The notes under the pieces: model-generated | Seen by the model: the letters and a program-made list of their open reading frames with translations, nothing else | What the model was told of the DNA's origin: nothing | Database searches by the model: none | NCBI RefSeq assembly: GCF_001701045.1 | Contig: NZ_CP016757.1 | Location: forward strand, 2,692,219-2,756,218 | DNA length: 64,000 bases | Direction of reading: 5' to 3' | From: Cloacibacillus porcorum | GTDB lineage: Bacteria; Synergistota; Synergistia; Synergistales; Synergistaceae | Made by a program: the position numbers and the translations under genes | In this document: positions 3,672 to 59,814 of the stretch, in pieces | Position numbering within the stretch: position 1 is the stretch's first letter | How the letters are laid out: every line of letters begins with the position of its first letter

Positions 3672-3774
3672 GGATACAGACGGTCCTCTCTTATTTTCTT
3701 GCGCGGGATCTCTCGCCTAAAGACACAGCGGCCTGACAGTATGCGGCGATCTGTTACATTTCTGTGTTCAATAT

Positions 3775-3804
3775 AAAATGCGGACTCATGTGAGCCCGCA
3801 TTTT
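3775..3804. terminator. Bidirectional terminator between convergent XRE and TRAP genes
   Basis: AAAATGCGG pairs with CCGCATTTT around a CTCA-TG-TGAG inner stem with one A-C mismatch. A/T runs on both sides serve both strands. Confidence 0.85.
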
Positions 3805-3821
3805 GTATTTTGAGAATTCAC

Positions 3822-39319: not shown

Positions 39320-40483
39320 CTAGAGGTAGTTGGCAGCGACCAGAACCTCTTTGACTTTTTCTTCGTTCTTCTTCGCGAACTTAATGACGGGGCCGGTGCA
39401 GCCCATTGAGGACTCGGCGTAGATACCGGCCTTCCAGAGCGCCTTGACAGCGTTTTCTATCTCAAGGACGTCGACGCCGTGGATCTCTTCGTCTGTCGGC
39501 TCGGCCGCGGGGGCTTTGACATCTTCCTCGGCCGCCGCCTGTTTCGGCTGCATGGCCTCGATGAGATCGTCAAGTCCGGCCGCCTTAGCCGCCGCCAGCT
39601 CCTTCGCCACGATCGCGGGGAGTCCGTTTTTCGCGGCGCTAGCGTTGAGCGAGAGCGCGGAGGCGATGACAGGAGCACCCGAGGCGCGGGAGATGATCGA
39701 GATGACCTTGTTCCAGCCCTCTCCGGCGGAGGGGCCGTAACCCCAACCCATCGCTTCGTAGTTGCCGCCGGTGGTCCAGGCTCCGAAGAGCTTCATAAGG
39801 ACGTTTCCGGTGAGGGTGTCCGTCACACAGACGTCGGCCGCTCCGGCGAGCAGGTCGTTGCCGCGAAGGATCGCGCCGCCGTCTTTTCTGATGCTCTCCG
39901 CGAAGTTAATGCCGTAGCCGTTGTCCTTGAGTTTCTGGAGGGCGCGCAGAACTGTCTGAGCGCCGTCAAGGTTGAGGACGCCGACCGTCGGCTCCGGTAT
40001 GCCGGCAGACTTCGCTACCGCGATGCCGTAGATGGCGTTGCGGAGCATAGCCTCCGTCCTGACCGGGGAGGACGTGCCCGTAGAGGAGGCTACGAAGCAC
40101 GGTTTCCCTTTGCCAGGCGTAAATACCTTTCCTATTGTGGTTACACCGACGGGGAACGGGTAGTGGAGAGCTACCGCACCTTCTATGGTCCCGTCGCTCA
40201 GTGCCTTTTCCATCGCCGCGGATATTTCGTGCTCGTCCGCCGCCGTCTCGACCCAGTTAAGGTCTTCGTAGCCCGCGAGTTTCGGGCCGATGCAGAATAC
40301 TTTCACGCTGGGGTCGTTCTGCATTGCGAGGCGCGCGCCACGGCAGAGCTCTTCCTGGCCGAGCTCGCTGCCGTATGCCATAAGGCCGACTTTGGTCTTT
40401 TTGCCGCCGCCCTCTTTAGCCTCTTCTATTATTTCGCCCAGTATGTCGCCTATCAAGGCCTTTACGGATGCGTTATCTGTCAT
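39320..40483 (-). CDS. grdD: Glycine/sarcosine/betaine reductase component C, alpha subunit
   Basis: 387 residues, related to PlsX. It forms protein C with GrdC, in which Se-carboxymethyl selenide from GrdA becomes acetyl phosphate. Visible family blocks are AYGSELGQEELCRGARLAMQ, ALHYPFPVGVTTIGKV and MGCTGPVI, with Cys362 near the end at about the position of the C-terminal Cys known in clostridial GrdD. The start follows the GrdC stop by 11 bases, so the two are translated from one message. Confidence 0.93.
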   Translation of the reverse strand: MTDNASVKALIGDILGEIIEEAKEGGGKKTKVGLMAYGSELGQEELCRGARLAMQNDPSVKVFCIGPKLAGYEDLNWVETAADEHEISAAMEKALSDGTIEGAVALHYPFPVGVTTIGKVFTPGKGKPCFVASSTGTSSPVRTEAMLRNAIYGIAVAKSAGIPEPTVGVLNLDGAQTVLRALQKLKDNGYGINFAESIRKDGGAILRGNDLLAGAADVCVTDTLTGNVLMKLFGAWTTGGNYEAMGWGYGPSAGEGWNKVISIISRASGAPVIASALSLNASAAKNGLPAIVAKELAAAKAAGLDDLIEAMQPKQAAAEEDVKAPAAEPTDEEIHGVDVLEIENAVKALWKAGIYAESSMGCTGPVIKFAKKNEEKVKEVLVAANYL

Positions 40484-40494: not shown

Positions 40495-42027
40495 TTACTT
40501 TTTGAGGCTTGCGGCAAGTTCTCCGAGGCTCTCAAGGATGAGTTCGCGGATCTCTTCTTTGCTCACTGTGGCTTCCGCCTGCTTGGGCTGCGGCTTCTCG
40601 ATGAGGAACGAGGCGCCGTCGGCCAGGTTGGTCAGACGACCAAGGAAGAGACTGCCCTTACCGATGATCATCGCGCGGGTCATCTTGCCGGCGTTGATGG
40701 CGTCGGCGGCGTGCCCCATGAACGGCACTCCGGAGGGAATATGTCCCTGCGTATGGACGAAGCCTGTCATACCATGCTCTTTTGTGAACTTCACCATGTC
40801 GGCCTTTTCGATGGCCTTCTTCATCACCGCGAGGGCCGCGATCATCTTGAAGTTCGCCGTCGGCACGTCGCCCGCGCCAGCGGGAAGGGTGATCTCGGGG
40901 TTGTGGAGCTCCGGTGAGAATTTATCCACATCGGCAAATGTCAGTCCGACCTTCTGAAGCGGCTCGTAGGTGAGGACGGAGGTGACGGTCTGCGGCGAAG
41001 CGCCCGCGCCGACAGTATGCTTGCCGATCGCGTCTAGGCGGATCACAGGCAGGGTGCCGTCGTCGGGAACGATGAGGACGCCGAAGGAGCCGATGCAGTT
41101 TTCAAGGGCGGGAAGCTCTTTTTTGACGTGGTCGCGCGCGTTCATGTAAAGCTTGGGAATCGCGCCGCCCGCGATGACCGCGACGTTCTTACGGGTTCCC
41201 GCGGCGACCATCGAAGCGCCGGAGAGAACCGCGTTAACGGGGCCCGCGCAGAAGCCGCGCACGTCGCAGCCGGAGGAGTTCACGCAGCCCGCTATTTCGG
41301 CGATGGCCTTCGCGAAGTTGCCGCCGCCGCGCTGGTTCATGTCGCCGGCCGCCTCTTCCGAACATTCGATGACAAAGTCGATATCCTCGGGCTTCATACC
41401 GCTGTTCTGGATGAGGTGGAGCAGTGAGAGCACGGCGCTCGCCTTGCAGGTGATGTTCACCAGCAGCTCATAGGCGGTGAGGTTCGGGTCGACTTCGTGT
41501 CCCCTTCTCGCGCAGCCGACAACCTTGCCGTCGACATAGAGGGGCAGCGCGCCCGCGGTCTTGACTTCGTTCTCTATCTCAGCCGCGTCGTGGCCTGCCT
41601 CGAGGCGCGCTACGATATCTTCGCGCATCAGGGGGTGTTTGGCGATCTTTTCCTTGACGGCGGCGGAGAAATCCTTATCAAGCCAGACAAGGTCGAATAC
41701 GTCGCAGATGTCGAGGAAGGCGATCGTCTCGTCTTCGGGCATGATCTCGCCGTATTTCCCGAAACGGATCTCCTGCGGCTCAAGGTTCTTGTACCAGGGC
41801 TGGGGACGCGTTTCAAAGTCCTCTATCTCCATGGCGCCGATGTATGTGAGGTTCGGAGCGTAGCTGGCCGCCTCGTGGTAGTTCTGCTGGTATTTGGGAA
41901 GTTCTTTGAGGAATTCTGAATCGGGGTGCGTCTCCCTCTCTACAAAGGGGGTGTTGCCGTACCAGAGGCCGAGCTCGGGTGTGTGGTTTAATGAATAGGC
42001 TGCCGCTTTGATCGCTGCGTTTGGCAT
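40495..42027 (-). CDS. grdC: Glycine/sarcosine/betaine reductase component C, beta subunit
   Basis: 510 residues, thiolase/KAS III-like. NAAIKAAAYSLNHTPELGLWYGNTP at the start, and SGCDVRGFCAGPVNAVL with a Cys in the centre (about 259-275) as candidate nucleophile. With GrdD it generates and releases acetyl phosphate in glycine-type reduction. The start follows GGAGGAG. Upstream is an AT-rich leader (42060-42180) that should hold the promoter. GrdC/GrdD serve all B components of the cell, so they could work with both grdB-type operons in the window. Confidence 0.95.
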   Translation of the reverse strand: MPNAAIKAAAYSLNHTPELGLWYGNTPFVERETHPDSEFLKELPKYQQNYHEAASYAPNLTYIGAMEIEDFETRPQPWYKNLEPQEIRFGKYGEIMPEDETIAFLDICDVFDLVWLDKDFSAAVKEKIAKHPLMREDIVARLEAGHDAAEIENEVKTAGALPLYVDGKVVGCARRGHEVDPNLTAYELLVNITCKASAVLSLLHLIQNSGMKPEDIDFVIECSEEAAGDMNQRGGGNFAKAIAEIAGCVNSSGCDVRGFCAGPVNAVLSGASMVAAGTRKNVAVIAGGAIPKLYMNARDHVKKELPALENCIGSFGVLIVPDDGTLPVIRLDAIGKHTVGAGASPQTVTSVLTYEPLQKVGLTFADVDKFSPELHNPEITLPAGAGDVPTANFKMIAALAVMKKAIEKADMVKFTKEHGMTGFVHTQGHIPSGVPFMGHAADAINAGKMTRAMIIGKGSLFLGRLTNLADGASFLIEKPQPKQAEATVSKEEIRELILESLGELAASLKK

Positions 42028-44198: not shown

Positions 44199-45449
44199 CT
44201 AAATTCTCTCGGCAGCCGCCAACTTTACCGCAGTTGTGAAGACCTCCAGCGCCTGACGCAGCTCATCCGTCGGCGGATAGGTGGGCGCGATCCTGATTAT
44301 GCTGTCTTTCGGGTCCAGTCCGTGGGGATATGTCGCGCCCGCCGGCGTCAGCTTTACGCCGGCTTCTTCGCAAAGGCGGACTATCTTTTTCGCGCAGCCC
44401 TCCGGCGCCTCGAAGCAGATGAAGTATCCGCCCTTCGGCCTGCCCCAGCGGACGAGTTCCAGCCCTCCGAGCTCGCGTTCCAGCGTCTGAAGCACAAGTT
44501 CAAACTTCGGACGCACGATATCCGCGTGCTTTCTCATATGCGCCTCCACGGCCTTTTTGTCCGGCAGGAAGCGCGTGTGACAAAGCTGGTTCACCTTGTC
44601 GTAGCAGACAAGCTGGTAGCGGATAAGGTCGGCGGCAAAGGCGATATTCGCGGGGCTTGCCGCCATCGCGCAGACTCCGCCGCCGGCAAAGGTTATCTTG
44701 GAGGTGGAGGTGAACATGAGGACCCGGTCCTCCGTTCCGTGCCTGAGGCAGGCCTCGTAGATGTTGGCAAGCTCGTCCCGGTCGCCGTCGTAGAGGTGGT
44801 GCATACAGTAGGCGTTGTCCCATATCAGACGGAAGTCCGGGGCCGCCGTCTCCATCGCCGCCAGGCGCTCGACCGTCTCGTCGGAATAGGTGAAGCCGGT
44901 GGGGTTTGAATACATCGGCACACAGATCATCCCGCGCACGTCAGGGTCCTTAGCCAGCCGCTCGACCTCGTCCATGTCTGGGCCGTCTTCACGGGTCACC
45001 ACCGGAAGCATTTCAATACCGTAGGTATCGCAGATATGGAAATGCCAGTCATAACCGGGGACAGGACAGATAAATTTAATCTTCTCCAGCTTCGACCAGG
45101 GCGTGAACCCCTCCATCGGTCCGTTGATAAAGCATCTTTTGAGCGCGTCGGAGATCATGTTGATGCTCGAACTTCCACCGGCGAGGACCTGCTCCGCCGA
45201 CACGCCGAATATTTCGGCAAAGAGGCGGCGCACCTCGGGTATTCCCTTGAATTCACCGTAATTGCGGACGTCCATTCCGTTCTCGCAGATAAAATTATTA
45301 TCGTCCAGTGTGTGAAGCATCGGAATGGAGAGGTCAAGCTGGGCCGTATCAGGTTTGCCCCTGGACATATCCAATTTCAGGCCAAGCCCCTTCAGCTCCT
45401 CATATTTTTTACGAATTTCATTTAGATTAAGAGCGTTTTCCGACATCAT
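44199..45449 (-). CDS. PLP aminotransferase, Aminotran_MocR-like group
   Basis: 416 residues. A GGSSSINMISDAL motif for phosphate binding, PMYSNPTGFTY, IWDNAYCMHHLY (PLP O3' and N1 contacts), and Lys in TSTSKITFAGGG. The N-terminal MSRGKPDTAQLDLS is typical of the aspartate aminotransferase subgroup called type Ic or MocR-like. It is probably an aspartate or aromatic aminotransferase. The start at 45449 follows AAGGGGGAA. It is downstream of the hydroxyacid dehydrogenase, so both may process 2-oxo acids. Confidence 0.9.
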   Translation of the reverse strand: MMSENALNLNEIRKKYEELKGLGLKLDMSRGKPDTAQLDLSIPMLHTLDDNNFICENGMDVRNYGEFKGIPEVRRLFAEIFGVSAEQVLAGGSSSINMISDALKRCFINGPMEGFTPWSKLEKIKFICPVPGYDWHFHICDTYGIEMLPVVTREDGPDMDEVERLAKDPDVRGMICVPMYSNPTGFTYSDETVERLAAMETAAPDFRLIWDNAYCMHHLYDGDRDELANIYEACLRHGTEDRVLMFTSTSKITFAGGGVCAMAASPANIAFAADLIRYQLVCYDKVNQLCHTRFLPDKKAVEAHMRKHADIVRPKFELVLQTLERELGGLELVRWGRPKGGYFICFEAPEGCAKKIVRLCEEAGVKLTPAGATYPHGLDPKDSIIRIAPTYPPTDELRQALEVFTTAVKLAAAERI

Positions 45450-45556
45450 ATATTCCCCCTTGATCAGCCCGCCGCAGTTTTTCCGCGGCGGACGCAGATT
45501 ATTATATATCACGCGGCATCGCCGCCCAAAAGGAGGCTCGCATCACAAATAAGGAC

Positions 45557-46534
45557 TTATTTATTGACGATGTTGATACATTCGCCCGCTATATATGCCT
45601 TCGCGTTCGCAACGGCGCAGTCGATGATTCTCTGCCGGCATTCCTTCGAGGCCCAGGAGATGTGCGGCGTGATGATGCAGTTCTTGGCGTTAAGCAGCGG
45701 ATTGTCTTTCGTGATCGGTTCCGAAGAGACGACGTCGACGGCTGCCACCGAGACCTTGCCGGAGTTCAGCGCATCCGCCAGATCCTGCTCCACCACTATC
45801 TGCCCGCGGCTGTTGTTGACGATTATCACACCGTCCTTCATTTTTTCTATATTGTTCTTGTTGATAAGCCCTTTGCTGAACGGATTCAGCGGCATATGCA
45901 CCGCAATGACGTCGGAGGAGGCCAGCAGCGTTTCAAAATCGACGTAATCGGCCACGGCGCGGCCGGCGTTCGTGGGATAGGGGTCATAGGCCAGCACCTT
46001 CATACCGAGTGCGCCCGCGGTGGCGGCCGTGCGGGTGCCGATCTTACCGAGGCCCAAGATCCCCAGGGTCTTTCCGTCGAGTTCGATCAGCGGATAATCC
46101 CAGTAGCACCAGTCTATGTTGTTTTCCCATTTGCCGGCATGCACGGTCTCGCTGTGATGGCCTATATGGAGGCAGGCCTCCAGCATCAGCGCAATCGCGT
46201 ACTGGCTCACCGCCGCGCTGCCGTATGTGGGGATATTGGCGACGGGGATGCCCTTTTCCTTCGCGTAGGCGACGTCGATGATATTATAACCGGTCGCCAG
46301 CATGTTGATGAATTTTACGCTCGGGCAGGCGTCAATGATATTTTTCGTGATCGGCACCTTTTTCGTGTAGACCAGTTCGGCGTCTCCGATACGCGCTATA
46401 ACCTCCTGCTCGTCCGTCTGCGACGTGCGGTCGTATACGGTCAGATCGCCCAGAGCGCCCAATTCGTCCCAGCTCAAATCGTCTGAATTTACGGTAAAAC
46501 CATCCAAAACGACTATCTTTTTCTTCTCCTGCAT
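45557..46534 (-). CDS. D-2-hydroxyacid dehydrogenase
   Basis: 325 residues. NAD fold LGILGLGKIGTRTA (about 153-166), then the catalytic Arg in NNSRGQIVVE (about 238-247), Glu in SSEPI and His in ITPHISWAS (about 296). These match the glycerate/hydroxypyruvate and D-lactate dehydrogenase group. It would oxidise D-2-hydroxy acids formed by the LarA-like isomerase upstream, or reduce 2-oxo acids. The start follows AAGGTGG. Confidence 0.93.
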   Translation of the reverse strand: MQEKKKIVVLDGFTVNSDDLSWDELGALGDLTVYDRTSQTDEQEVIARIGDAELVYTKKVPITKNIIDACPSVKFINMLATGYNIIDVAYAKEKGIPVANIPTYGSAAVSQYAIALMLEACLHIGHHSETVHAGKWENNIDWCYWDYPLIELDGKTLGILGLGKIGTRTAATAGALGMKVLAYDPYPTNAGRAVADYVDFETLLASSDVIAVHMPLNPFSKGLINKNNIEKMKDGVIIVNNSRGQIVVEQDLADALNSGKVSVAAVDVVSSEPITKDNPLLNAKNCIITPHISWASKECRQRIIDCAVANAKAYIAGECINIVNK

Positions 46535-46621: not shown

Positions 46622-47851
46622 CTAAACCAGCGTCAGCCTCTCGTGCGCCGCCACATGATCAAGAAGGGCCTCTGAGACCTCTATCGTTTCAAGCTCAAGT
46701 GTATTTTTAATTTTCACGATTTTGAGCCTATTCCTGTCGGCTCCCCTCGCCAGCTGGATCGCGAAGCGCAGCGCCTCATCCTCTGAGTCGGCGGTGATCG
46801 GGATCTTGGAGCCCTCCGGCGACTTGACGGCAAGCGCGTTGGCGTACATCAGAGGCAGGTCCAGCTTATTCAGGACTTTGCGCGTTATCACATCGAAGAT
46901 GCCCACCCCTACGGCGTTGCCGTGAGATTCATCCGTGACGTCGAAAAGTACCATGCGTTTGATCTTCGGCACCGGCAGGACGAACTTTTTGAGCAGGAAA
47001 CTCTTGCCGAGGATATTGGGATCAAAGCCGGAGCCGGAGATGTTTTTGCCGATCTCTTCGACTATCAGGACGTCGATGTCGGGGATCATCAAAGTCGGCA
47101 TATTGTCCTTCGCAATCTTTACCAGCTCTTTTTCCCGTTCTATGATCTTTTCGGCGGGAATCGCCTCGATCATCGCCGTTTCATCGTAGGCGTTTTCGAG
47201 TATCGCCACGCCGAATCCGACGCTGGCGTGTTTCATTATCATCCCGGCGGCCTCGATCAGGATATCGGCGAAATTATCAAAATCCGCCTCGTGCACCGCG
47301 GTACAGCCGACATGGTTGCCGAGCCCGATGACCAGCATCTTGCAGACGCCGCTTTGGATATCCCCGACAAAATCCGTATGCAGCTTGACCCTGTTTATTG
47401 GCACGATAAGATCCGCTCCGAGCGCCGCGGAATCAAAGTAAACGTCTATTCCGCCCGACGTCCTGCCCAGGCGGACCACATCCACGGAGGTGACTATCTC
47501 GACGCCGATATTTTCCTCTGTGATGCCGTAAGAGGCGAGGACTTCGCGCTGGCCCTCCGGCGTTCCGCCGCCGTGGCTGCCCATGGCGGAAATGATAAAC
47601 GGTTCGCCGCCAAGTTCTTTGATCTGCCCGATGACCTCTTTCACGATCTTCGCGAGATTTTTGATGCCCCGGCTGCCAACTGCGACGGCGACCTTCGCGC
47701 CGGGCTTGATCTTCTCTGATATCTCTTTTTTAGTGATCTCCTGTTTTATATGCGCCTCAATGTCCTCAAGCCGCGGTCTGGAAAAACTTTGCCGGACCCT
47801 GTGCATTTGGGGAAGAGGGTAGTTCAGCTGCTCTTCAAGCAATATAGGCAT
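46622..47851 (-). CDS. Nickel-pincer-dependent isomerase, LarA (lactate racemase)-like
   Basis: 409 residues. The N-terminal DUF2088/LarA domain contains VAVGSRG, SAMGSHGGGTPEGQ (likely first catalytic His), RVKLHTDFVGDIQSGVCKML with His and Lys (Lys is the residue that carries the pincer nucleotide in LarA) and GLGNHVG. LarA relatives epimerise 2-hydroxy acids with a nickel pincer cofactor built by LarB, LarC and LarE, none of which are in this window. It is upstream of a D-2-hydroxyacid dehydrogenase, which suggests hydroxyacid uptake and oxidation. The start follows GAGGAGG. Confidence 0.88.
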   Translation of the reverse strand: MPILLEEQLNYPLPQMHRVRQSFSRPRLEDIEAHIKQEITKKEISEKIKPGAKVAVAVGSRGIKNLAKIVKEVIGQIKELGGEPFIISAMGSHGGGTPEGQREVLASYGITEENIGVEIVTSVDVVRLGRTSGGIDVYFDSAALGADLIVPINRVKLHTDFVGDIQSGVCKMLVIGLGNHVGCTAVHEADFDNFADILIEAAGMIMKHASVGFGVAILENAYDETAMIEAIPAEKIIEREKELVKIAKDNMPTLMIPDIDVLIVEEIGKNISGSGFDPNILGKSFLLKKFVLPVPKIKRMVLFDVTDESHGNAVGVGIFDVITRKVLNKLDLPLMYANALAVKSPEGSKIPITADSEDEALRFAIQLARGADRNRLKIVKIKNTLELETIEVSEALLDHVAAHERLTLV

Positions 47852-47983: not shown

Positions 47984-48838
47984 TCATGACGGCCCAGATA
48001 TGCGCCATTCAAATTCAGTTGAGGCGGAGGAGAGCTTCGAGTATCGTTTAGGCGATACCCCTTCAAGCTTTGTGAAGGTACTGATAAAGTAACTCGTACT
48101 TAAAAAACCCACCATTTCCCCCGCAAGTTTCACGCTGTAACCGGCGCGCAGGAAATCCTTTGCCTTGAACACCCTCATATTGGTGATGAACGCCCTCAAC
48201 GTGATGCCCGTCACGTTTTTAAAAGTGCGTCACAGCTGTGATTTGCTGATAAAGAACGTGTTGGCGAGATTTTCCAGCGAAAGGTCCTCCGCGTAGTGCT
48301 CCTGAATGTATTGGACGACGGGAAAGATCCTGTCAAGCGGCTTTTTGCTGCGTGGAAGCGAGGCCTCGTTTTTCGTCGACTCATACAGCGCATTGATGTG
48401 TATGAGCATCTCCGCCAGACAGATTTTGCCGTAGACCTCCTTCCCATAGTCGGAACACTCCGGAGAGAGGTAATAATCCAGCTTTTTGATCTGCTTCAGC
48501 AGCCTCTCCAGCTGATCTTCTCCGAGCTGGTAACGGTGATTGAAGTTTCGGTGATCCAGAAAACAGGAGGTGAGGTCAAATCCGGCGGTGGAAACACCGC
48601 TCACCTCATCGGCGTCGAAGTTGATCGCGTAGAACTGATAGGGCTGCTCGTCGCTGGCGCCGTCGCTGCGGTGAAAATCCATGTTGTTCATGACAAAGAG
48701 AGAACCCCGGCGAATGGGATAGACCGCGTTGTTGATGTACATTTTGCCGCCGTCGGAGAGGGTCAGCAATATCTCCATCCCTTTGTGAAAATGCAGATTG
48801 CGCCAATTCCACTGCTGGGTACGAAAAATAATAAACAT
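47984..48838 (-). pseudogene. AraC-family regulator interrupted by one in-frame TGA
   Basis: From ATG 48838 (after GGGAG) the frame encodes an AraC ligand-binding domain (LHFHKGMEILLTL, RRGSLFVMNNMDFH), then the first HTH up to ISKSQL; a TGA (48230-48232) follows and the frame continues as RTFKNVTGITLRAFITNMRVFKAKDFL and the second HTH to 47984. Only one codon is changed. The expected residue is Ser or Cys, and TCA to TGA or TGC to TGA would explain it. Either the gene is newly inactivated or the TGA is decoded. It is upstream of, and probably controlled, the larA-like operon. Confidence 0.85.
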
Positions 48839-49161: not shown

Positions 49162-49392
49162 CTACTCGAGACCGACGTCGATCCTTGCATCCTCCGCGCT
49201 GATTGAATCCGCCTCGATAACCACGTCCTTATCGCGGAAATATACGATGCCAAACACCACGACATAAGAGGCCAACAGCCAAAGGATGATGAACAGGCCG
49301 GTATGTGAATTCATCAGGCGCAGCTCTTTCAAAATCACCGCGAAAATTACGAATGCGATTAAAAACAGCCATCTGATATATTTTCTTTTCAT
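49162..49392 (-). CDS. Small two-span membrane protein next to the TRAP permease
   Basis: 76 residues: helix 1 about 7-25 (IRWLFLIAFVIFAVILKEL), helix 2 about 33-52 (LFIILWLLASYVVVFGIVY), then an acidic tail. Starts 11 bases past the permease stop, so it is co-transcribed with the TRAP genes and could be an accessory subunit. No family recognised. Confidence 0.7.
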   Translation of the reverse strand: MKRKYIRWLFLIAFVIFAVILKELRLMNSHTGLFIILWLLASYVVVFGIVYFRDKDVVIEADSISAEDARIDVGLE

Positions 49393-49402
49393 GGTTTATT
49401 GT

Positions 49403-51361
49403 TTAAGCCTCCAATTCTCCGCCCTGTTCAAAATCAAGGCCCTCTTTTTTATAAGCGAGATAATTGAGCGTCAGGATGATAACGCCTCCGGCCAGTCCCG
49501 CAAAGGTAAGATCCCAACGCGGGCTTAAGGACAGCAGCGAGCAGACAAACAGGACGGCTCTGAGTACAAGATTGATCTTCGCGAACGCATACCCTTCAAT
49601 GACCGCCGCAAAACAGACGACCGCAATCAGACAGCCGACGCTGTTGATGATAATATCCGCCGCAGAGCCGATCATGATCAACCCGGGATTATATACAAAG
49701 GTAGCAAAGACCAGTAACCCGGGAAAGCCGATGCAGAATCCCTTGACCGCCGTCTTCATCGGCCCGGCCTTGGCAATACCGGCCGCGGTGAAGGAGGCGA
49801 TCGCCACCGGCGGTATGATATTTGAAAGCACACCCCAGAAGAGCGCGTACATATGAGCCGCCAAAGCGGGAACGCCCATCTGCATAATGGGGGGAATGAC
49901 CGTTACAACCATGATTATATAGACCGCGGTGGTGGTCAGCCCCATGCCCAATATAACGGCCAGGACAGCCGCCAGAAGCAAAGCCAGCCACAGATGTCCG
50001 CCGGAGATGCTCACGATCTGCGTCCCTAATTTCAGCCCCACACCGGATAAGGTCGAAGAGCTGACGATGATCCCAGCCGCGGCGCAGGCCATCGCCGTCA
50101 CGACCGTCGCCTTGGCCGCCGCTTCACAGACGGAGAGGATATTTTCGGCGCCGGGACGGCTGCTTTTTTTCAGGAAGCTGACGATGAACAGACCTACTAT
50201 CGACCAGAAACAGGCGGTAGTCGCAGTGTAGCCCGAAACCAGGAAATAGACCAAGAGGCCGATGGGGAGCAGCAAATGAGCGCCATTCTTCAGGACGTCT
50301 TTTACGACCGGCATCTCCTCTTTTTTCAGAGGAGGGATTTTTGACTTGCGGGCATGGAAGTCCACGGCGGCGAAAAGCGCGAAATAGTAGCATAGCGCCG
50401 GGATGGCGGCAGCCAGCGCCACCGTTACATAGGAGAGCCCCAGATAGGCGGCGACGACAAAGGCGGTCGCCCCCATGATCGGCGGTGTGAACATACCGCC
50501 GGTGGAGGCGCAGGCTTCAACGCCGCCGGCATATGTACTCTCGTAGCCGACTCTTTTCATCAAGGGGATCGTAAATGTTCCGGTGGTCGTAACATTAGCG
50601 CAGGAGCTGCCGGAGAGCATGCCGAAGAAGGCGCTGCCTACCACCGCCGCCTTGGCGGGACCGCCGACCTTCGCGCCGAAGGCGCCAAGGGCAAGATCAG
50701 TAAAGGTGCGTCCGGTACCGGTCTCCTCCATGAAAGCGCCAAATATTAGGAAGAGGACGACAAAAGAGGCGATCGTGCCGAGGGGCATGCCAAAGATACC
50801 GCCCTCCTGCATATACATGTCCAGAACCAGTGATTTCAAACTTGTGCTCGGTCCGTAGAAAATCCAGAACATCTGTTCGCTGAACAGCGCCTGAAAGGTG
50901 AAGAAGATGGCGATAAGCACCATCGGCAGCCCCAGCGAACGCCGAGTGGCCTCCAGAACCAGAAGCCAAAGGATGACTCCCATACAGATGTCAGCAGTGT
51001 TGGGAGAGATGACCTGCCGTAATTCAAAGGCTTCAACATCCCAAAGATAGTAAATCTCCAACGCCAGACTCAACAGAATACACACGACATCGACAAGCGT
51101 CCATATACTTGGTTTATCGCTCCACGATTGGCGGCTGAGCGGGAAGAAGATGAAGCATAGCACCAATACGCCGGTCAAATGCAGGGATCTGTAAAAATGC
51201 GCCTCGGGATGGCCAAACATTCCGGCGTATAGGTGAAAAGCAACAAAGGCAAAAGATAATCCTACGATAATAAAAGCCAATACCTCTCGCGGGCCAAATT
51301 TTTTAGCCTCAAGCAGACAGCTGATGGCCGTCAGCGGACGAGCTTCTCCATTTTGTATCAT
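49403..51361 (-). CDS. TRAP transporter fused permease (4TM/12TM), TAXI type
   Basis: 652 residues. A DctQ-like N-terminal part precedes the DctM part, with GMLSGSSCANVTTTGTFTIP (about 239-258) and GLTTTAVYIIMVVTVIPP. It is clearly a different paralogue from the two permeases near the window start. It is accompanied by its own TAXI binding protein gene 120 bases upstream, making a complete transporter. The ATG follows AGGAGG. With the neighbouring reductase pair it may bring in that pair's substrate. Confidence 0.93.
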   Translation of the reverse strand: MIQNGEARPLTAISCLLEAKKFGPREVLAFIIVGLSFAFVAFHLYAGMFGHPEAHFYRSLHLTGVLVLCFIFFPLSRQSWSDKPSIWTLVDVVCILLSLALEIYYLWDVEAFELRQVISPNTADICMGVILWLLVLEATRRSLGLPMVLIAIFFTFQALFSEQMFWIFYGPSTSLKSLVLDMYMQEGGIFGMPLGTIASFVVLFLIFGAFMEETGTGRTFTDLALGAFGAKVGGPAKAAVVGSAFFGMLSGSSCANVTTTGTFTIPLMKRVGYESTYAGGVEACASTGGMFTPPIMGATAFVVAAYLGLSYVTVALAAAIPALCYYFALFAAVDFHARKSKIPPLKKEEMPVVKDVLKNGAHLLLPIGLLVYFLVSGYTATTACFWSIVGLFIVSFLKKSSRPGAENILSVCEAAAKATVVTAMACAAAGIIVSSSTLSGVGLKLGTQIVSISGGHLWLALLLAAVLAVILGMGLTTTAVYIIMVVTVIPPIMQMGVPALAAHMYALFWGVLSNIIPPVAIASFTAAGIAKAGPMKTAVKGFCIGFPGLLVFATFVYNPGLIMIGSAADIIINSVGCLIAVVCFAAVIEGYAFAKINLVLRAVLFVCSLLSLSPRWDLTFAGLAGGVIILTLNYLAYKKEGLDFEQGGELEA

Positions 51362-51483
51362 TTATTTTTGTTCCTCCTTTTAACATACTTTCTTACACAT
51401 CTAAAAGACGATAGACCGCAGGGAAACAGCTTCTCGTGTTGGAGAAAGCCGCTTCCCTGTCAATCATTTAGAAAAAGAGGCTC

Positions 51484-52506
51484 CTATTTTACTTTGATAC
51501 CCTTTTCATTAAGATATTTCAGCGCACCGGGGTGAAGAGGTATGTTGGCTACCTTAGGAAGGTCCTGTGGGTTGCAGATTTTGGGCCAGCCCCTCGCCTC
51601 TGTCGCCTTAAAAGAATCCTTATAATAGCCGGATTCATAGATGGTTTTGGTGACGATATAGACGAAATCTTCCGGCAGGTCGGCGTTGCAGACGATGGTG
51701 GTGGGGATGGCGATGGTCTTGACGGGATAATTCTGCTTGTCATAGGTGTTCGGCTGCATGGTGGCTTTCACATAACCGGTCATCGAGGGATCGGCCAGCA
51801 CCTTGTCGGCGTGCGCGTCGTCTATGCTGAGGAATTTAACTCCCGGCTGTATGATAAGGTTGACGATGCTCGGCATAAGTCCGCCATATGTGCCGATAAA
51901 GTCCATATGGCCGTCCTGCATCATCGTAGAGGCGTCATCCCATCCAAGGGACATGACCTCTCCGCCCGCGGCTTTAATGTCGTTGAATGACATGCCGTAG
52001 GCCTTAAGGAGCGCCTCAATCATCATCCTGTCGGTAGACGCGAGCTTGCCCCCGTTTACCTTCTTGTCTTTCAGCTGGCTGAGATCTTTGATATCGGATT
52101 TTTCGGGAACGATCAGCTGCGCAAGCATCAGCTCCTGGGTTCCGACCAGACGCAGATTCGTCAGCGGCTTCTCGTAGGGCGCCATTCCCTTATAGGCCAG
52201 ATACTGGTTCTGCGCGGTGGTCAGCGTCAGCACCATCTCTTTGCCCTCGTGTACGGCGGAGACGTTAAAGGCGCCGCCGGTGGACTGAACGGAGCAGGGA
52301 GCATTTATGCCGGCTTTTTTCAAAGCTGCTTCCAGCTTAGAGGCCAGAACGGCGGAAGCGGGATACCATATGCCTCCAGGGAATCCCGTGCCGATTTTGA
52401 CAAATTTAGGATAAGCCGGCGCGGCGGCTACCGTGCTGCAACTGAACAAAAAAACACTAAGGCAAACAACAAACGCGGCTGCTAAATTAATTTTTGAACG
52501 AAACAT
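51484..52506 (-). CDS. TAXI-family TRAP solute-binding protein
   Basis: 340 residues. Signal peptide 1-29 (ending STVAAA; an LFSC stretch could also act as a lipobox). The mature part begins FVKIGTGFPGGIWYPASAVLASKLE, the TAXI hallmark, with later TTAQNQYLAYKG and SLGWDDAS. TAXI proteins bind carboxylates or amino acids such as glutamate. The start at 52506 follows AAGGAGG. It is separated from the GrdB-type gene by a hairpin, but on the same strand. Confidence 0.94.
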   Translation of the reverse strand: MFRSKINLAAAFVVCLSVFLFSCSTVAAAPAYPKFVKIGTGFPGGIWYPASAVLASKLEAALKKAGINAPCSVQSTGGAFNVSAVHEGKEMVLTLTTAQNQYLAYKGMAPYEKPLTNLRLVGTQELMLAQLIVPEKSDIKDLSQLKDKKVNGGKLASTDRMMIEALLKAYGMSFNDIKAAGGEVMSLGWDDASTMMQDGHMDFIGTYGGLMPSIVNLIIQPGVKFLSIDDAHADKVLADPSMTGYVKATMQPNTYDKQNYPVKTIAIPTTIVCNADLPEDFVYIVTKTIYESGYYKDSFKATEARGWPKICNPQDLPKVANIPLHPGALKYLNEKGIKVK

Positions 52507-52696
52507 ATTTTCTTCCTCCTTATTTTCCCGTACTGCCAGCAAAATTCAAACCTGCTTGCGCCTTTACATAAACGTCGTCTTCCGCCGGCATCTCCCCTTT
52601 CAAAAAATCGCTCCGACGCCTCTCGGTATATCTCTATCCGGCAGCGCCGCCCTACATTTGGGACCGTTATTTTCCCATCTTCACAGCATTGGCGAA

Positions 52697-52724
52697 AGTG
52701 GGCTTTGCCACAGCAAAGCCCACT
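52697..52724 (-). terminator. Hairpin after the GrdB-type gene
   Basis: A 12-bp perfect stem, AGTGGGCTTTGC and GCAAAGCCCACT, with a CACA loop. The T run is short on the minus strand, so partial read-through into the TAXI-TRAP genes is possible. Confidence 0.75.
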
Positions 52725-52733
52725 CTTGTGATT

Positions 52734-54032
52734 TTAGAAGAAAGTCTGTTCAGTAACGTCCGTGGAGACCGCCTTAAGGGCGCGCTCGACGAGACTTTTC
52801 TGCATCGCCTTCTGCTCCTCGGCTGTAAGCAGGGGATCGCTGAAGGGAGATACAAGCCCGTAACCGGGAACTATACGGTTCGCCCCGGTGACCTTGGATA
52901 CGGAGACAAGGTTTGTGACATGCACTATGGGGAATCCCGCTCTGTCTATCTCTTTTACCATCGTTGCACCGCAACGAGTGCAGCTTCCTCAGGTACTGAC
53001 AAGGACTACGGCGTCGACCGCCTCTTTCTTGAGCGCTTCGGCGATCTCTTTGCCCATCCGGCGGGCGTCCTTGAGGGTGGCCAGGTTGCCGGTGGTCGAG
53101 TAGAGGGTGTTGCAGAGCTCGCCGATCACACCGGCTTTCTCAAATTCCCTGAAGGAAGAGAGCGGAAAGAGAACCTCCGGATTGGCGTTGACAAAGTCGG
53201 TGTTGATGCCGCAGTGGACGCTGTAGAAGTCTCCCTTTACAAGAACATCCTTGCCGGAGACATCGTAGGTCGCCCATATGGAGCAGGTGCCGCCGGGAAT
53301 GCGGTCAGGGTTGCCGAGGGGAACAAGTCCGCCGGTGCTGACGAAGGCGACCTTGGCCTTGCTGAGATCGCCGACCGCCTTGGAGGGAACGACGTTGTCG
53401 CGCGGCTCAATCTTCAGTTCGGTCTCGTAGGGCTGACCTGAGAGTTTGGCAAGAAGCATATCGACGGCGCGGTCGCCGGCGGTCTTCTCCGCAAAGACCT
53501 CTTTTCTGATGCCGTGCGGGAAGTAACCCTCGGCGTCGGCCCAGAGTATCTCTTCGCCGGAGATCATCTTGTTGACGATGCCGGCCATCGCGGCGGCGTC
53601 CTGACGCATCTTGGCTGCGCTAGCGCCGCCCTTCATGATATAGAAGGGTTCCTCTTTGAACATCGCCACGCCGGGGTTTTCCTCGTGCATGCTGGTAACC
53701 GCCTGCACGCCATATTTTTCGTGCGCGAATCTGCATATTTCGCCGCAGCAGACGCCGTAACGTCCGGCGCGGAAGGCGGGTCCGGCGGCCATGATATCGA
53801 ACTCTTTACCTTCAAGGAAGGCGGCGATGCGCTTCAGCGCCTCGTCTTTGTGGCTGGCCATAAAGTTGTCGCCGCAGATGATGGTGTGCGTAACCTCGGC
53901 ATCTTTCAGAGCCGCCTTAAAGGCAAGCGCCGGACCTACAGGCCCCTCTTTGATGACAGGCTCAAAATCAGCCTCGTTTTCTCCGCCGACGCCGCCGAAA
54001 AACTGGTTGGCATAGAATATAATCTTTTTCAT
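52734..54032 (-). CDS. GrdB-type selenoprotein (component B selenoprotein subunit of a glycine/sarcosine/betaine-type reductase), paralogue of unknown substrate
   Basis: 432 residues when the TGA at 52989-52991 (codon 348) is read as selenocysteine. The frame continues GSCTRCGATMVKEIDR, giving the U-x-x-C-x-x-C family site, to the stop at 52734. A 17-base hairpin, TCGTTGC-GGT-GCAACGA (52961-52977), begins 11 bases past the TGA and is identical to that in the other grdB-type gene: a bacterial SECIS candidate. The N-terminal FFGGVGGENEADFEP is typical. It pairs with the GrdE-like gene 30 bases upstream. Substrates known for this family are glycine, sarcosine and betaine; here it is not assigned. 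Confidence 0.9.
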
Positions 54033-54062
54033 TTATTTATCCCCCCATACGATATATCTGAG

Positions 54063-55391
54063 CTAGTATTCCTTCACGGTCTTGGTCGTGAAACCGGCGC
54101 AGTTGGTGCTGTCCACAATCATGCAGCCGTTTACGATCAGAGAACCGTCCGGGCGCAGGCTGGGGCCGTATTTCTCGTGAGCGGTCCACGCGGCGTGATA
54201 AAAGTCGCGGGTCACGGAGGCGAGATCGCCGATCACGTTCTTCATCGGCGGGAATTCAAAGACGGTGCCGGAGTCGCCGGTGGAGACGATGGCGTCGGCG
54301 ATGGGGTCGAGCATCGATTTGCCGCTGTGCTCCGGAGTAAGTCCCACCGTCTTGATGCCGCGATGTTCCAGCTCGGAGCACATGAAGAAGAAGTCGACGT
54401 CGTAGTTGCTGCCGCCGGCGACGGAGGCGACGATCGCGCCGTCAAGCTTCAGCAGGGAGGCCAGCTCGCCGCCGGCAACCTTTACCGTCTGCTTGAAGTG
54501 GTTGGGCACGTCGACCGCGAAGGGAACAACGCCGACAAAATTGATAGTCTTGCCGTGTTCCTGATAGAGACGTTTGATTATCGGCCAGTTCTGATAAGTA
54601 TAGGTGCAGTAGCCCTCTCCGTAGAGGCCGCCCTGGTTGGTGATCTGTCCGTCGAATACAGCGTTGGGGTGCATAAGGAAGGGCAGCATGTTTTCGCAGT
54701 CGATACCGAAAATTCTCTCGTTAAAGAACTTATCCTTGCCGACCTGAGCCTTGATCTGGAAGAAAAGGGCGACCCTCGGAAGCCCCTTCTTCTCCGCCTC
54801 TTCGGCACCGGGCTCAAGCTCGTAGCATTCCCAGTCTTCCGGCTCCTGGTCTTTCAGCGAAGCGGCCACATAGTCCGCCAGATAATGGGCGGCCATCTTC
54901 AGCGGAGCCTCGTTTCTGAAAGGCTGGTCTAGCTTTGTGGGGTTGACCAGTTCCGCGTATACCACAAGGTTCACCATCTTCGCAAAGATGGAGTGCTCCG
55001 CGCCGGGGCCGCTCATATCAAGCATGCCCTCGGCCGCCTGCGAGTATTTACCGCAGGCGATGACATTGATGCCTTTCATCGCGTAGAGGTCGCCATCGCC
55101 GCAGCTTTCGATCGTCAGACCGCCGGTCACGCCGGGGAAGGTGGCGCGTCCATCGGGACGGAAGCGTGGCTCCAAACCGACCTTGCAGGGCAGAATGCGG
55201 GTCTCGTCACCGGGATGGACAATATATATCTCTATGTTCTTCAGTTCTTTGTCCGGGTCCAGAGAGGCGATAGCTTCACCTTTATTGATTGTGAGCACGC
55301 CGTTTTTGAATGAGGTCTTTTCACCAAATACGATGTCCTTAACATGAAAATTACCTATTCTCAGCTTTTTCGTATGTTCCAAACTCTTCAC
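54063..55391 (-). CDS. GrdE/GrdG/GrdI-type reductase subunit lacking the Asn-Cys processing site
   Basis: 442 residues, the usual size of the GrdE-type proprotein. Shared blocks with the GrdE at 57692-58987: EGMLDMSGPGAEHSIFAKMVN, DCENMLPFLMHPNA and NWPIIKRLYQEHGK. Where GrdE has GNC (Asn244-Cys245), this protein has TNQGG (about 251-255), with no Asn-Cys. In GrdE the Cys forms the pyruvoyl group after cleavage. It might be cleaved elsewhere (a TNC is at about 429-431, 12 residues from the end), or not at all. It is the first gene of the unit with the GrdB-type gene. Confidence 0.85.
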   Translation of the reverse strand: MKSLEHTKKLRIGNFHVKDIVFGEKTSFKNGVLTINKGEAIASLDPDKELKNIEIYIVHPGDETRILPCKVGLEPRFRPDGRATFPGVTGGLTIESCGDGDLYAMKGINVIACGKYSQAAEGMLDMSGPGAEHSIFAKMVNLVVYAELVNPTKLDQPFRNEAPLKMAAHYLADYVAASLKDQEPEDWECYELEPGAEEAEKKGLPRVALFFQIKAQVGKDKFFNERIFGIDCENMLPFLMHPNAVFDGQITNQGGLYGEGYCTYTYQNWPIIKRLYQEHGKTINFVGVVPFAVDVPNHFKQTVKVAGGELASLLKLDGAIVASVAGGSNYDVDFFFMCSELEHRGIKTVGLTPEHSGKSMLDPIADAIVSTGDSGTVFEFPPMKNVIGDLASVTRDFYHAAWTAHEKYGPSLRPDGSLIVNGCMIVDSTNCAGFTTKTVKEY

Positions 55392-56369: not shown

Positions 56370-57677
56370 TTAAAATACTGTCTGCTCCGATATCGGCGTC
56401 TGGAGGGCCTTCATGGCCTTGTCCAGGATCGCGCGGCGGATCTGCTTCTCTTCCTCGGCGCTCTTGCTGATGTCTCCGAGGGGATAGGGGATGGCGACCG
56501 CGGGAACTATGCGGTTCGCGCCAACCGTCTGCGAGATCGGTACGATCGTGCAGATGTGTACCACGGGCATTCCAAAGGCTTCGATCGCTTTGACCATCGT
56601 TGCACCGCAACGAGTGCAGGTTCCTCAAGTGGAGGTGAGGATCACGGCGTCAACTCCGTCTTTCTTGAGCTGCTCACCAATGGCGGTGCCGAACTTCTTC
56701 GCGTTGGCAATCGATGTTCCATTGCCGACGGTCGTGAAGAAGTATCTGTAGAGCTTTTTGAAGACGCCCTCTTTCTCCATCTCGCGGAGCACGTCGACGG
56801 GAAGCACTCTGTTGGGGTCAGTGTTGGCATAGGTCGGGTCGTAACCGCCGTGCGCCGTCGCGTAATGCTCGCCGTCAGCCGTCTGTACACCTTCGATATC
56901 GTAGGTGCCGAACTTCATCGCGCTGGAGGCCTCGATGTGGTCGGGGTTGCCTTTCGGGACGATGCCGCCGGAGGTGACGAGCGCGATCGTCGCGTTTTTA
57001 AGGTCTTTAATCGCCTCGCCGGGGGCTACGCGGTCAAAGCTGGGCATCGGATATTCGGTGGTGAACTCTTCGCCCTTGAGCTTCTTGACGAGCATCTCCA
57101 CCGCGCGGTCCGCGCCGGGTCTGTCCTGGAAGAAGTTGACGCGCACGCCGCGGGTCATGTAACCGGCCTCTTCGGGCGAGCCGGGGTTGCCGTTCGTCTC
57201 AAGGACTTTGAGGACGAGCTTCGCCATCGCGGGAACGGCCGTCTTGATACCGCGCGCGTTGTCGGCTGTCGGGACGATGAATACCGACTTCTTGAACATA
57301 TCCGCGCCGGGGTTCTCCTCGTACATACCGGAGACGGCGGGTATGCCGAGCTTCTTCTGTACCGCGTCGGCTACGCCGCCGGCGGCGGTGCCGTAACGTC
57401 CGGCGTTGAATGCGGGGCCGGTGACGACCGCGTCGGGCTGGAAGGCGGAGATGAGCTTGAGTATCTCTTCGGTCGCCGATTCCATGTTCTCCGCGTAGTA
57501 GCCGTCGCCGCAGATTACCGTGCCGACGACTTCGGCGGCGTCGCCGAGTTCGTGGGCAAGGGCCATGCCGGGTCCGACTACGCCGGGGCGTGACTCGGGC
57601 TTGGTGTCAGCCTTCTCTTCTCCGCCGATACCGGCAAAGAACTGATTTATGTAGTGTACGATCCTCTTCTTTGTCAT
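56370..57677 (-). CDS. grdB: Glycine reductase component B selenoprotein subunit
   Basis: 435 residues with TGA at 56625-56627 as selenocysteine 351, close to its known position near 350. Sequence around it: STUGTCTRCGATMVK. A SECIS candidate hairpin TCGTTGC-GGT-GCAACGA lies at 56597-56613. The protein activates glycine together with GrdE and passes the carboxymethyl group to GrdA. It is the last gene of grdX-grdE-grdB, followed by a terminator. The glycine assignment rests on the glycine riboswitch upstream of grdX and the normal processing site in GrdE; sarcosine or betaine forms cannot be fully excluded. Confidence 0.93.
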
Positions 57678-57691
57678 TGTCTTTCGTCCTC

Positions 57692-58987
57692 CTACCAGGT
57701 TTTGGCGCTGAGGGGGTTAAAGCCCAGCTCGCATGTCGCGCCTGTGATAGCCTGCAGCTCAACCTCTATCGACCCGTCGGCTCTGAGCGAACCGTCGAAG
57801 CCACCGGCTATAACGTCCGTGTAGTCCGTAAATCCGATCAGTTTTTCCTGCGGGGGCAGTACGACGATCATGTTCGCGTTGCCCGCCGTTACCACCGCGT
57901 CGGCCTCTTTCGTGGCGTCGGCGAGCGACTGGCTCGCGCCGTCGCGGCCCGCGTATTCGTCGGTGATGAGCGCCGTTCTGATACCGGCCTGCTCCGCCTT
58001 GCGGCAGTTCATGATAAGGTCGGCGTCGGGATTGCCGAAGCCCTCTTCGCTGATTACAACGCCGTCGACGCCGAGCATCGAGGCGAGCTTCACCGCGTAC
58101 GAAGAGCTTCTCTGCTTGTCCATCAGCGTGACGTTCTCGTTTGTGATGATTACGCCGATGAAGTTGATGTCTTTTCCGTGGCGCTCATAGAGGCTGCGGA
58201 TGACGGGGTTGTTCTGGTGGACATAGGTGCTGTTCTTGTCGCATGCGGAGACGCAGTTGCCGGAGACGATCGCGCAGTCCATTGTCTCATTGGGGTGGAT
58301 CAGCGTGGGGATAATCTTCTTCGCGTCCACGCCGTAGACGTAGGTGTCATGAAGAAGTCCCTGAGTCTGGAGCATGTAGATGTAGGCAACCTTCGGGAGT
58401 CCGGGATAGGCTTTCATGGCCTCCGCGAACGAGGGAAGCTCGTAGGGCTTTGTCTCATCTACGGCTGCGCCAGCCTTCCAGGCGGCCTCCGCGACGTAGA
58501 GCGCGGCGCGGAATCCGGCAAGGCGGCAGGCTTTCTCATATTCGTGGGGCTCGATGCCTTCGACGGGCTCGAACACGAGCACGGCGTTCATCGTCTTTGA
58601 GAAGGGGGTGTATTTCGCGCCCTCGCCGCTCATGTCGACGATGCCTTCCTGGAATCCGACGATGCGTCCGCAGGTGACGACGGCCGCGCCGTCAAGGACG
58701 AAGGTCTTTCCACTGCCAACGGTGTCAACGCCGCTGAGCATGCCGGGGAATACCTGACCAACGCCCTCCGTCTTGTAACGGGGCTGGATGGCGTCTTTGA
58801 CAGGGCAGATGCGGACCGATTCGCCGGGACGCGCGAGGTCGGCGTTCAGGGTCTTAAAATGCTCTGTGTCCGAAGCCGCTGCGAGGAACTCTTCTTTGTT
58901 GATCTGAAGGGTGCCGTCGGCAAGAAGGGCGGTCTTGTCGCCCCATGCGATGTTCTTAACTTTTGCCTTCTGCAGTTCGAGTTTCAT
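57692..58987 (-). CDS. grdE: Glycine reductase component B proprotein (pyruvoyl precursor)
   Basis: 431 residues. Cleavage between Asn244 and Cys245 in SGNCVSACDK would give two subunits of about 26 and 20 kDa, with the Cys becoming a pyruvoyl group that binds the glycine amine as Schiff base. The C-terminal GATCELGFNPLSAKTW is typical. The start follows AAGGAGG. It lies between grdX and grdB, as in clostridial operons but without grdA or thioredoxin genes. Confidence 0.94.
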   Translation of the reverse strand: MKLELQKAKVKNIAWGDKTALLADGTLQINKEEFLAAASDTEHFKTLNADLARPGESVRICPVKDAIQPRYKTEGVGQVFPGMLSGVDTVGSGKTFVLDGAAVVTCGRIVGFQEGIVDMSGEGAKYTPFSKTMNAVLVFEPVEGIEPHEYEKACRLAGFRAALYVAEAAWKAGAAVDETKPYELPSFAEAMKAYPGLPKVAYIYMLQTQGLLHDTYVYGVDAKKIIPTLIHPNETMDCAIVSGNCVSACDKNSTYVHQNNPVIRSLYERHGKDINFIGVIITNENVTLMDKQRSSSYAVKLASMLGVDGVVISEEGFGNPDADLIMNCRKAEQAGIRTALITDEYAGRDGASQSLADATKEADAVVTAGNANMIVVLPPQEKLIGFTDYTDVIAGGFDGSLRADGSIEVELQAITGATCELGFNPLSAKTW

Positions 58988-59036
58988 AATGATCCTCCTT
59001 GAGTGATTTTTGAGGGAAATAGCGCGCTGTAAATGT

Positions 59037-59474: not shown

Positions 59475-59529
59475 AGGACACCGCCTTTCTGGCTAATATC
59501 CTCTGTTTTCGTCCTCGCCTGTTTTTGAC

Positions 59530-59636
59530 GTGTCCAGAGTGCTGTCCGGCGACAATCCTTATGCCTGAGAGTTTCAACCTTATGGTCTTGCCCCTTCGGC
59601 GCCCATAGTTAAAGTGGACGGGTCTCTCTTGCCGCT
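59530..59636 (-). promoter_or_regulatory. Glycine riboswitch, single aptamer
   Basis: On the minus strand: GCAAGAGAGACCCG, then GCGCCGAAGGGGCAA, then AAACTCTCAGGCATAAGGA, and GCCGGACAGCACTCTGGAC. GAGAG/CTCTC P1-type pairing and the conserved core match the glycine (gcvT) aptamer. It lies in the leader of grdX. Only one full aptamer is seen; the following region may form a leader-linker. It probably turns the operon on when glycine is abundant. Confidence 0.92.
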
Positions 59637-59746
59637 TTCATTCAGCTTGACCTTAGTATATCAAGAGCAAAATTCTTGTCAACAGCTTTCGAAGGTATTT
59701 TGTGATATTTTGCACCAATATTATCCTATTTTTTATACTATAGCAT

Positions 59747-59786
59747 AAAAAAAGCGTCTCTTTTTTGATAAAAGAGACGCTTTTTT
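59747..59786. terminator. Bidirectional terminator downstream of the NSS transporter
   Basis: An 11-bp stem, GCGTCTCTTTT (59754-59764) and AAAAGAGACGC (59770-59780), flanked by A and T runs on both sides. Confidence 0.9.
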
Positions 59787-59814
59787 ATTTTTCAGAACAA
59801 CGGAAGTGATGTTT

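Follow-up and report, generated by a model that had tools for sequence, protein, structure and literature searches.

What does a selenoprotein reductase of the glycine reductase (Grd) type act on when it lies beside a classical glycine reductase operon and is followed by a transporter of its own? The question is raised by a 64,000-nt stretch of Cloacibacillus porcorum DNA (NZ_CP016757.1, 2,692,219-2,756,218; hereafter the window), taken from a single-contig genome of 3,585,187 bases, in which positions 49162-55391 of the minus strand encode a divergent protein B pair, a TAXI-TRAP transporter made up of a solute-binding protein and a fused permease, and a small protein of 76 aa. We refer to the two reductase subunits as GrdE' and GrdB'. 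The original prediction had read these five genes as a series on one strand and proposed that the pair, coupled to its own TAXI-TRAP transporter, reduces an imported compound other than glycine while sharing GrdA, GrdC and GrdD with the classical system. All five genes lie where it placed them, with Pfam or NCBIfam support for four, and the interpretation is supported in part, one exception being that the transporter family is not constant among relatives. We consider it likely that GrdE'B' and the TAXI-TRAP transporter together import and reductively cleave a compound of the form X-CH2-COO-.

A divergent protein B pair without the pyruvoyl-forming cysteine

Both subunits are assigned to the protein B family, with the cut-offs of PF09338, PF07355 (Table 1) and TIGR01918 (522.4 bits, cut-off 65.45) all exceeded. 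Neither reaches the cut-off of any NCBIfam equivalog model, the nearest being that for the betaine reductase subunit GrdH (NF040795, 554 bits against a cut-off of 775), and identity as fluoroacetate reductase was rejected, as GrdE' scores only 115.2 bits against the 675 that model NF053623 asks for. Among solved structures we found no relative of GrdE', and the two matches of GrdB' (E 0.22 and 0.82) were taken as chance.

The C. porcorum genome holds eight GrdE-family and nine GrdB-family matches but a single GrdA match, so that GrdE'B' must share protein A; together with the presence of grdC and grdD in the same window, this agrees with the predicted sharing of GrdA, GrdC and GrdD. Alignment of the eight GrdE paralogues shows that the pyruvoyl motif GNC is retained in the classical GrdE and in one further paralogue (L002) and reads QGG in GrdE', which accounts for the "odd" GrdE of the original prediction. 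GrdB' retains the whole STUGSCTRC motif, with selenocysteine (Sec) in a UxxCxxC arrangement and an accompanying selenocysteine insertion sequence (SECIS). The classical glycine set, comprising a sodium-dependent transporter, a glycine riboswitch, grdX, grdE and grdB, lies just upstream at 56370-61158; its riboswitch is the only one in the window and none precedes grdE'B', as had been noted. A betaine-like pair with the GSFMP motif (L003/L011) is also present in the genome and groups with reductases linked to BCCT transporters. Elsewhere in the genome, a GrdB-like C-terminal piece carries Cys in place of Sec (STCGTSSRC; L017 1501-2001, G000:C1:3480911-3481411), and beside it stands a Sec-containing GrdB with one Cys fewer in its motif (STUGTSSRGG; L015).

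Some GrdE match at E <= 1e-30 was found in 129 of 185 Synergistota genomes, yet only five carry a GrdE' of at least 58% identity: C. porcorum itself, a sister species (G134, 94%), a Synergistes sp. metagenome-assembled genome (MAG; G164, 85%), a Synergistaceae MAG (G104, 75%) and G166 (58%), the next match falling to 41%. Four of these five share the order grdE'-grdB'-TAXI-TRAP. A scan of bacteria and archaea at one genome per species returned 24 loci, and after removal of near-copies 61 of 90 GrdE matches entered a tree, from which a partial second grdE' copy (L091:1-645) was excluded, as it was from all counts. Ten GrdE' sequences form one clade (support 100/100, 100% of bootstrap trees), in line with the predicted divergence of the pair: those of the window, L048 (G134), L088 (G164), L089 (G104), L051 (G166), L090 ('Ca. 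Formimonas warabiya' DCMF, 66% identical to that of the window) and four Clostridia (L091, L092, L093 and L094). The clade is drawn within the betaine-like (GrdI) group, where several forks are open and long branches were flagged, suggesting that it sits beside or within the betaine reductases.

None of the ten members has Cys at the GNC column, and a pyruvoyl-type glycine or sarcosine reductase was rejected on this count. The GSFMP of most betaine-like sequences is likewise absent from all ten, two of which read GSFTP, and UGxCTRC is retained in GrdB' of all nine other members. This variant of a known enzyme family is real and conserved, is distributed across two phyla and comes with dedicated transporters.

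The reductase genes adjoin a transporter

We examined 5 kb around grdE' at ten distinct loci (eleven GrdE' rows were run, with L049 and L088, from the same genome, counted once). TAXI together with fused TRAP was found at five, a sodium:solute symporter (SSS) at four, none of the four transporter models at one and BCCT at none. By comparison, BCCT adjoins 26 of 31 betaine-like loci, and TAXI, TRAP and the symporter adjoin none of the 31. The predicted coupling to a transporter therefore stands for nine of ten members; that the transporter should be TAXI-TRAP does not, given the symporter in four. The BCCT, SSS and TctA labels were at first assigned by eye, after which the family was checked on four BCCT proteins and the symporters of three loci. 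Only ten TAXI genes exceed the cut-off in the 3.59 Mb of the C. porcorum genome.

Co-occurrence of transporter and reductase in other genomes, on which the original prediction staked its proposal, extends to another phylum. In DCMF, the TAXI-TRAP genes lie upstream of grdE', as opposed to downstream in the window, and belong to a different lineage (TRAP 33% and TAXI 28% identical to those beside grdE' in the window), the DCMF permease being closer to another TRAP of the window (38%). The linkage there hence involves a different transporter and represents an independent case. The DCMF genes run on one strand as TAXI-TRAP, grdE', grdB', trxB, trxA, grdA (PF04723, 256 bits), grdC and grdD, a continuation that supports the usual outcome of the pathway, acetyl phosphate. 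PreA-like and xanthine-dehydrogenase-like genes stand directly upstream of this run (L090 1116-6482). At the locus that lacks all four transporter models (L091), MFS, DUF5058 and creatininase-family genes lie beside the second, partial grdE'B' copy (1-5748), which may point to a cyclic amide as precursor.

Comparison of the binding proteins with the glutamate TAXI protein VcGluP revealed that none of six mutated site residues (Y45, S75, Q93, E125, Y200 and M201) is retained in the four Synergistota TAXIs, which carry W, A or T, T, M, G and T, respectively, and agree among themselves at five of the six positions; glutamate was accordingly rejected as the ligand. Q93 and E125 coordinate the ligand amino group in VcGluP (PMC11574862), and their replacement fits a ligand without a free alpha-amino group.

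Proposed substrate class and route

The cysteines from which a pyruvoyl group could form are missing in GrdI and FarE, and the Schiff base serves glycine and sarcosine (PMC10838667). By analogy, the substrate of GrdE' is expected to carry a leaving group that departs without the help of a Schiff base: X may be a quaternary or tertiary ammonium, another onium or another good leaving group that does not call for pyruvoyl activation, and would not be a primary amine such as that of glycine.

The TAXI-TRAP transporter would import an anionic or zwitterionic X-CH2-COO- compound, which GrdE' would hold without a Schiff base while the selenolate of GrdB' displaces X and takes over the carboxymethyl group. 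GrdA would then receive this group, with electrons supplied by thioredoxin, and GrdC/GrdD would release acetyl phosphate for ATP. The pair may have branched off the betaine reductases and subsequently changed its substrate. As speculation, carboxymethyllysine, arsenobetaine, dimethylsulfonioacetate, nitrilotriacetate-like compounds and creatine-like compounds can be named as candidates, the last prompted by the creatininase-family gene near grdE'B' in L091; Cloacibacillus evryensis is cited as a carboxymethyllysine degrader (PMC9501902).

A regulator gene with an in-frame TGA

The transporter genes are followed by a gene for an AraC-family regulator that is readable only through an in-frame TGA. 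This codon is TGA in the window and in the sister species, two of two genomes of the genus, and TGC (Cys) in the Synergistes MAG. The codon comparison covered 21 loci, one of which (L012) gave no match: near-full-length relatives, the MAG included, have Cys at this column in eight of eight cases, and matches confined to the helix-turn-helix (HTH) region in five of ten. In the alignment of eight proteins it is the only invariant Cys column, and 27 codons of the MAG gene are one step from TGA.

The regulators of the window and the sister species are 71% identical, with synonymous divergence (dS) of 1.55 before and 1.85 after the TGA and a ratio of nonsynonymous to synonymous divergence (dN/dS) of 0.116 before and 0.098 after. 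The 240 nt downstream of the codon contain 68 differences, 42 of which fall at third positions, and no insertion or deletion; 30 or fewer nonsynonymous changes among the 68 has P = 8e-9 under neutrality, and none of 2000 neutral simulations reached the observed identity (highest 60%). These values suggest that the two species have kept the TGA in common at synonymous saturation and that the sequence behind it is under purifying selection.

A tRNA-Sec above cut-off is present in all five genomes examined. An Rfam search found no SECIS after the AraC TGA. A hairpin with loop CGGGCA follows the codon in the window and the sister species but not in the MAG gene with Cys, although the simple rule that describes it is satisfied at 502 of 8533 coding positions of the window. 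Synonymous conservation near the TGA (9/12 against 104/194 overall) was not significant (P = 0.11).

In MarA-type proteins, helix 3, the second helix of the HTH, contacts DNA. In a fold model of the AraC protein (mean pLDDT 75), residue 203, the TGA position, falls within the second helix of the first HTH (199-210), and model residues 167-274 align with residues 9-116 of MarA in the MarA/DNA complex 1bl0 (Z 14.1, root-mean-square deviation 2.4, 106 aligned). Taken together, the sequence comparisons make it fairly likely that the regulator is a transcription factor that contains selenocysteine in that helix. Selenium supply would in this case gate the module at translation of its own regulator, since translation that stops for want of Sec would leave a protein truncated within the DNA-binding domain; a selenol at the DNA interface might in addition confer redox control. 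The protein may sense the ligand through its cupin-like N-terminal half and switch the module on only if selenium completes the DNA-binding domain. A search for an operator motif common to the grdE' and araC upstream regions of three genomes gave only short matches, none shared between genomes.

Hydroxyacid genes accompany the module in three genomes

In the window, the sister species and the Synergistes MAG, the same strand continues beyond the transporter with the AraC gene and then with genes for a LarA group 22 (LarA22) isomerase, a D-2-hydroxyacid dehydrogenase and an aspartate aminotransferase. The original prediction, correct in the extent of its five genes, left out this regulator with its conserved TGA and the three enzyme genes that travel with the module in these genomes. 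In the Synergistaceae MAG (80% complete), the gene run ends after TRAP and no LarA22 match exists in the genome. LarA22 itself is present in 70 of 185 Synergistota genomes, and at 30 LarA22 loci (flanks of at most 1.5 kb) a dehydrogenase neighbour occurs once and an aminotransferase never. The shorter run in this MAG and the rarity of such neighbours make the hydroxyacid genes look like an optional addition. They may process the released part of the substrate or feed electrons, the least certain link of the proposed route. In the literature passages on LarA groups, no substrate was found for group 22.

Two further observations concern these genes. In the sister species, an alanine racemase gene (PF01168, PF00842; L048 1949-3091) is inserted between the isomerase and the dehydrogenase, and in another genome (L113 2-2736) a fused TRAP permease, a D-2-hydroxyacid dehydrogenase (31%) and LarA22 stand side by side, a hint that LarA22 serves imported hydroxyacids.

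Coordinates and other features of the locus

Table 1. Features of the reductase locus and its surroundings (positions in the window; scores in bits)
Feature	Position	Strand	Match or score
grdE' (alpha/substrate subunit of divergent protein B, without pyruvoyl-forming Cys)	54063..55391	-	PF09338 346.6 (cut-off 22.2)
grdB' (selenoprotein subunit, STUGSCTRC, 432 aa including Sec)	52734..54032	-	PF07355 439.5 (cut-off 22)
Sec codon of grdB', in-frame TGA	52989..52991	-	
SECIS_4 of grdB', directly after the TGA	52951..52988	-	Rfam RF01990 52.9 (gathering 38)
TAXI solute-binding protein	51484..52506	-	PF16868 NMT1_3 174.1 (cut-off 27); TIGR02122 TRAP_TAXI 165.2 (cut-off 84.35)
Fused TRAP permease	49403..51361	-	PF06808 DctM 304.9 (cut-off 23.8); TIGR02123 TRAP_fused 577 (cut-off 320.65)
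Small hydrophobic protein, 76 aa	49162..49392	-	no family match
AraC-family regulator (cupin-like part and double HTH), readable only through in-frame TGA	47984..48838 (reading frame could start at 48889)	-	PF12833 62.6, PF00165 60.6 (TGA read as Cys)
In-frame TGA of araC, candidate Sec codon, second helix of first HTH	48230..48232	-	
Hairpin 13 nt past the araC TGA, candidate SECIS (stem ACGTGA/TCACGT, loop CGGGCA)	48199..48216	-	
LarA-type nickel-pincer isomerase, group 22	46622..47851	-	NF052515 509.8 (cut-off 400)
D-2-hydroxyacid dehydrogenase	45557..46534	-	PF02826 188.2
Aspartate aminotransferase type Ic	44199..45512	-	NF053594 580.2 (cut-off 435)
grdC, component C subunit beta, shared downstream step	40495..42027	-	NF040746 730 (cut-off 450)
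grdD, component C subunit alpha, shared downstream step	39320..40483	-	NF040747 562.4 (cut-off 350)
Classical grdE, GNC kept	57692..58987	-	PF09338 671
Classical grdB with TGA, SECIS_4 at 56587-56624	56370..57677	-	TIGR01917 644 (cut-off 602.2)
Glycine riboswitch, classical operon only	59543..59641	-	RF00504 65.9

The TAXI reading frame is open from 52542, the ATG at 52506 being the likelier start. The 76-aa protein, which has no match in Pfam or NCBIfam, is kept in the sister species (72%) and was not found in the Synergistes or the Synergistaceae MAG. A 12-pair inverted repeat at 52697-52724, between grdB' and the TAXI gene, is perhaps an attenuator or an mRNA-end hairpin. Promoter-like sites were at background in the promoter scan (8 against 7.5 expected), and the terminator scan returned 13 sites against 8.9 expected. 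Ahead of grdC, a 141-aa piece at 42314-42739 matches only the C-terminal part of CdaR-type regulators and is perhaps a gene remnant.

Alternative explanations

Several points, including those on which the alternatives below draw, weigh against the proposal that GrdE'B' and its TAXI-TRAP transporter act on an imported X-CH2-COO- compound. Because the loci under comparison also supplied the transporter models, a match of a model at a locus that went into it is not independent, and the zero cross-matches are the informative part. The Schiff-base argument takes its ground from what has been published on GrdI and FarE (PMC10838667). The five genes are a putative single transcript, given the hairpin at 52697-52724 and the background-level promoters. 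With a symporter in four of ten members and a varied motif at the former pyruvoyl site, the members may not share a substrate.

One alternative reads the pair as another betaine (or dimethylglycine) reductase whose transporter happens to be unusual. This would account for GrdE' being drawn inside the GrdI group, for the pyruvoyl Cys missing from both and for a betaine model being the best match of GrdB', yet that match stays below its cut-off, the genome already holds a BCCT-grouped betaine-like pair, and the clade has lost GSFMP and has no BCCT neighbour. A plain betaine reductase was rejected as the best reading on these clade, motif and transporter counts, and we regard the alternative as unlikely. 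The TAXI-TRAP transporter could instead serve the hydroxyacid genes, its position after grdB' being incidental, as these genes follow it on the same strand in three genomes and some other Synergistota LarA22 genes adjoin organic-acid transporters (TctA confirmed in one, the others judged by eye). However, the Synergistaceae MAG keeps grdE'-grdB'-TAXI-TRAP (transporter 71-79% identical) in an 80%-complete genome with no LarA22 match, and in DCMF the TAXI-TRAP genes accompany grdE'B' with no match to LarA22, the D-2-hydroxyacid dehydrogenase or the aspartate aminotransferase in the 21 kb covered, making this second alternative rather improbable.

For the regulator, the TGA could be an ordinary nonsense mutation in a decaying pseudogene. 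A published selenoprotein scan of the C. porcorum genome lists 18 known and no new selenoprotein genes (PMC12013277, Table 2), Rfam gives no SECIS, and only two genomes of one genus carry the TGA. Against decay stand the sharing of the codon at saturated synonymous divergence, the low dN/dS before and after the TGA, the neutral simulations and the intact frame, and we hold a pseudogene to be improbable to much the same degree as the hydroxyacid explanation. The TGA could also be a real stop, with translation restarting at a GTG six codons downstream to give the second half as a protein of its own; a GTG stands there in both species, and such an arrangement would explain purifying selection on the second half. 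It would also split the second helix of the first HTH, sits poorly with the conserved RTFK between TGA and GTG, and leaves unexplained why the TGA fell on the sole invariant Cys column, with 27 codons within one step in the MAG gene; we consider it improbable as well. A Sec-containing regulator remains our preferred reading of this gene.

Significance

Grd-type selenoenzymes carry out energy conservation in a soluble form, and glycine, sarcosine, betaine and fluoroacetate may not exhaust what they reduce; PMC6778437 leaves two DCMF protein B sets without a substrate. With a soluble binding protein that belongs to the clade, the search for further substrates can start from screening ligands against that one protein. 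The regulator is, in our view, the most surprising part of the module and the most worth a bench test. In the literature searched, including portions of PMC13188914, PMC12013277 and PMC9312934, we found no Sec-containing AraC or other HTH regulator; within that range the protein, if it does contain Sec, would be the first such AraC-type DNA-binding regulator known and would tie expression of a selenoenzyme operon directly to the presence of selenium.

Comparison with known systems

The glycine reductase next door (GrdE/GrdB, 56370-58987) shares family, gene order and SECIS type with GrdE'B', whereas the pyruvoyl Cys, the glycine riboswitch and the sodium-dependent transporter belong to the classical operon only. 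FarE/FarB, the fluoroacetate reductase reported from this species, is likewise a Grd-type protein B that has lost the pyruvoyl Cys, acts on a non-amine substrate and has its own transporter in the operon, but farB lacks the CxxC kept by GrdB' and the far transporter is of the major-facilitator type (PMC10838667). The binding protein belongs by sequence to the same TAXI family as the glutamate proteins VcGluP and TtGluBP and differs from VcGluP at all six site residues compared. For the regulator, the likeness is to the selenoprotein named "putative regulatory protein, FmdB family" (PMC13188914, PMC9312934), a Sec-containing protein with a regulatory name which, unlike the AraC candidate, is listed as a UxxU (PMC13188914) or U/CxxU (PMC9312934) protein. 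Betaine reductase GrdH/GrdI, whose product is passed to GrdA/GrdC (PMC10838667, PMC13188914), is the nearest group in the GrdE tree and resembles GrdE'B' in having no pyruvoyl Cys and a Sec-containing B subunit; GrdE' is set apart from it by a separate clade, by the loss of GSFMP and by a TAXI-TRAP transporter or sodium:solute symporter in place of BCCT.

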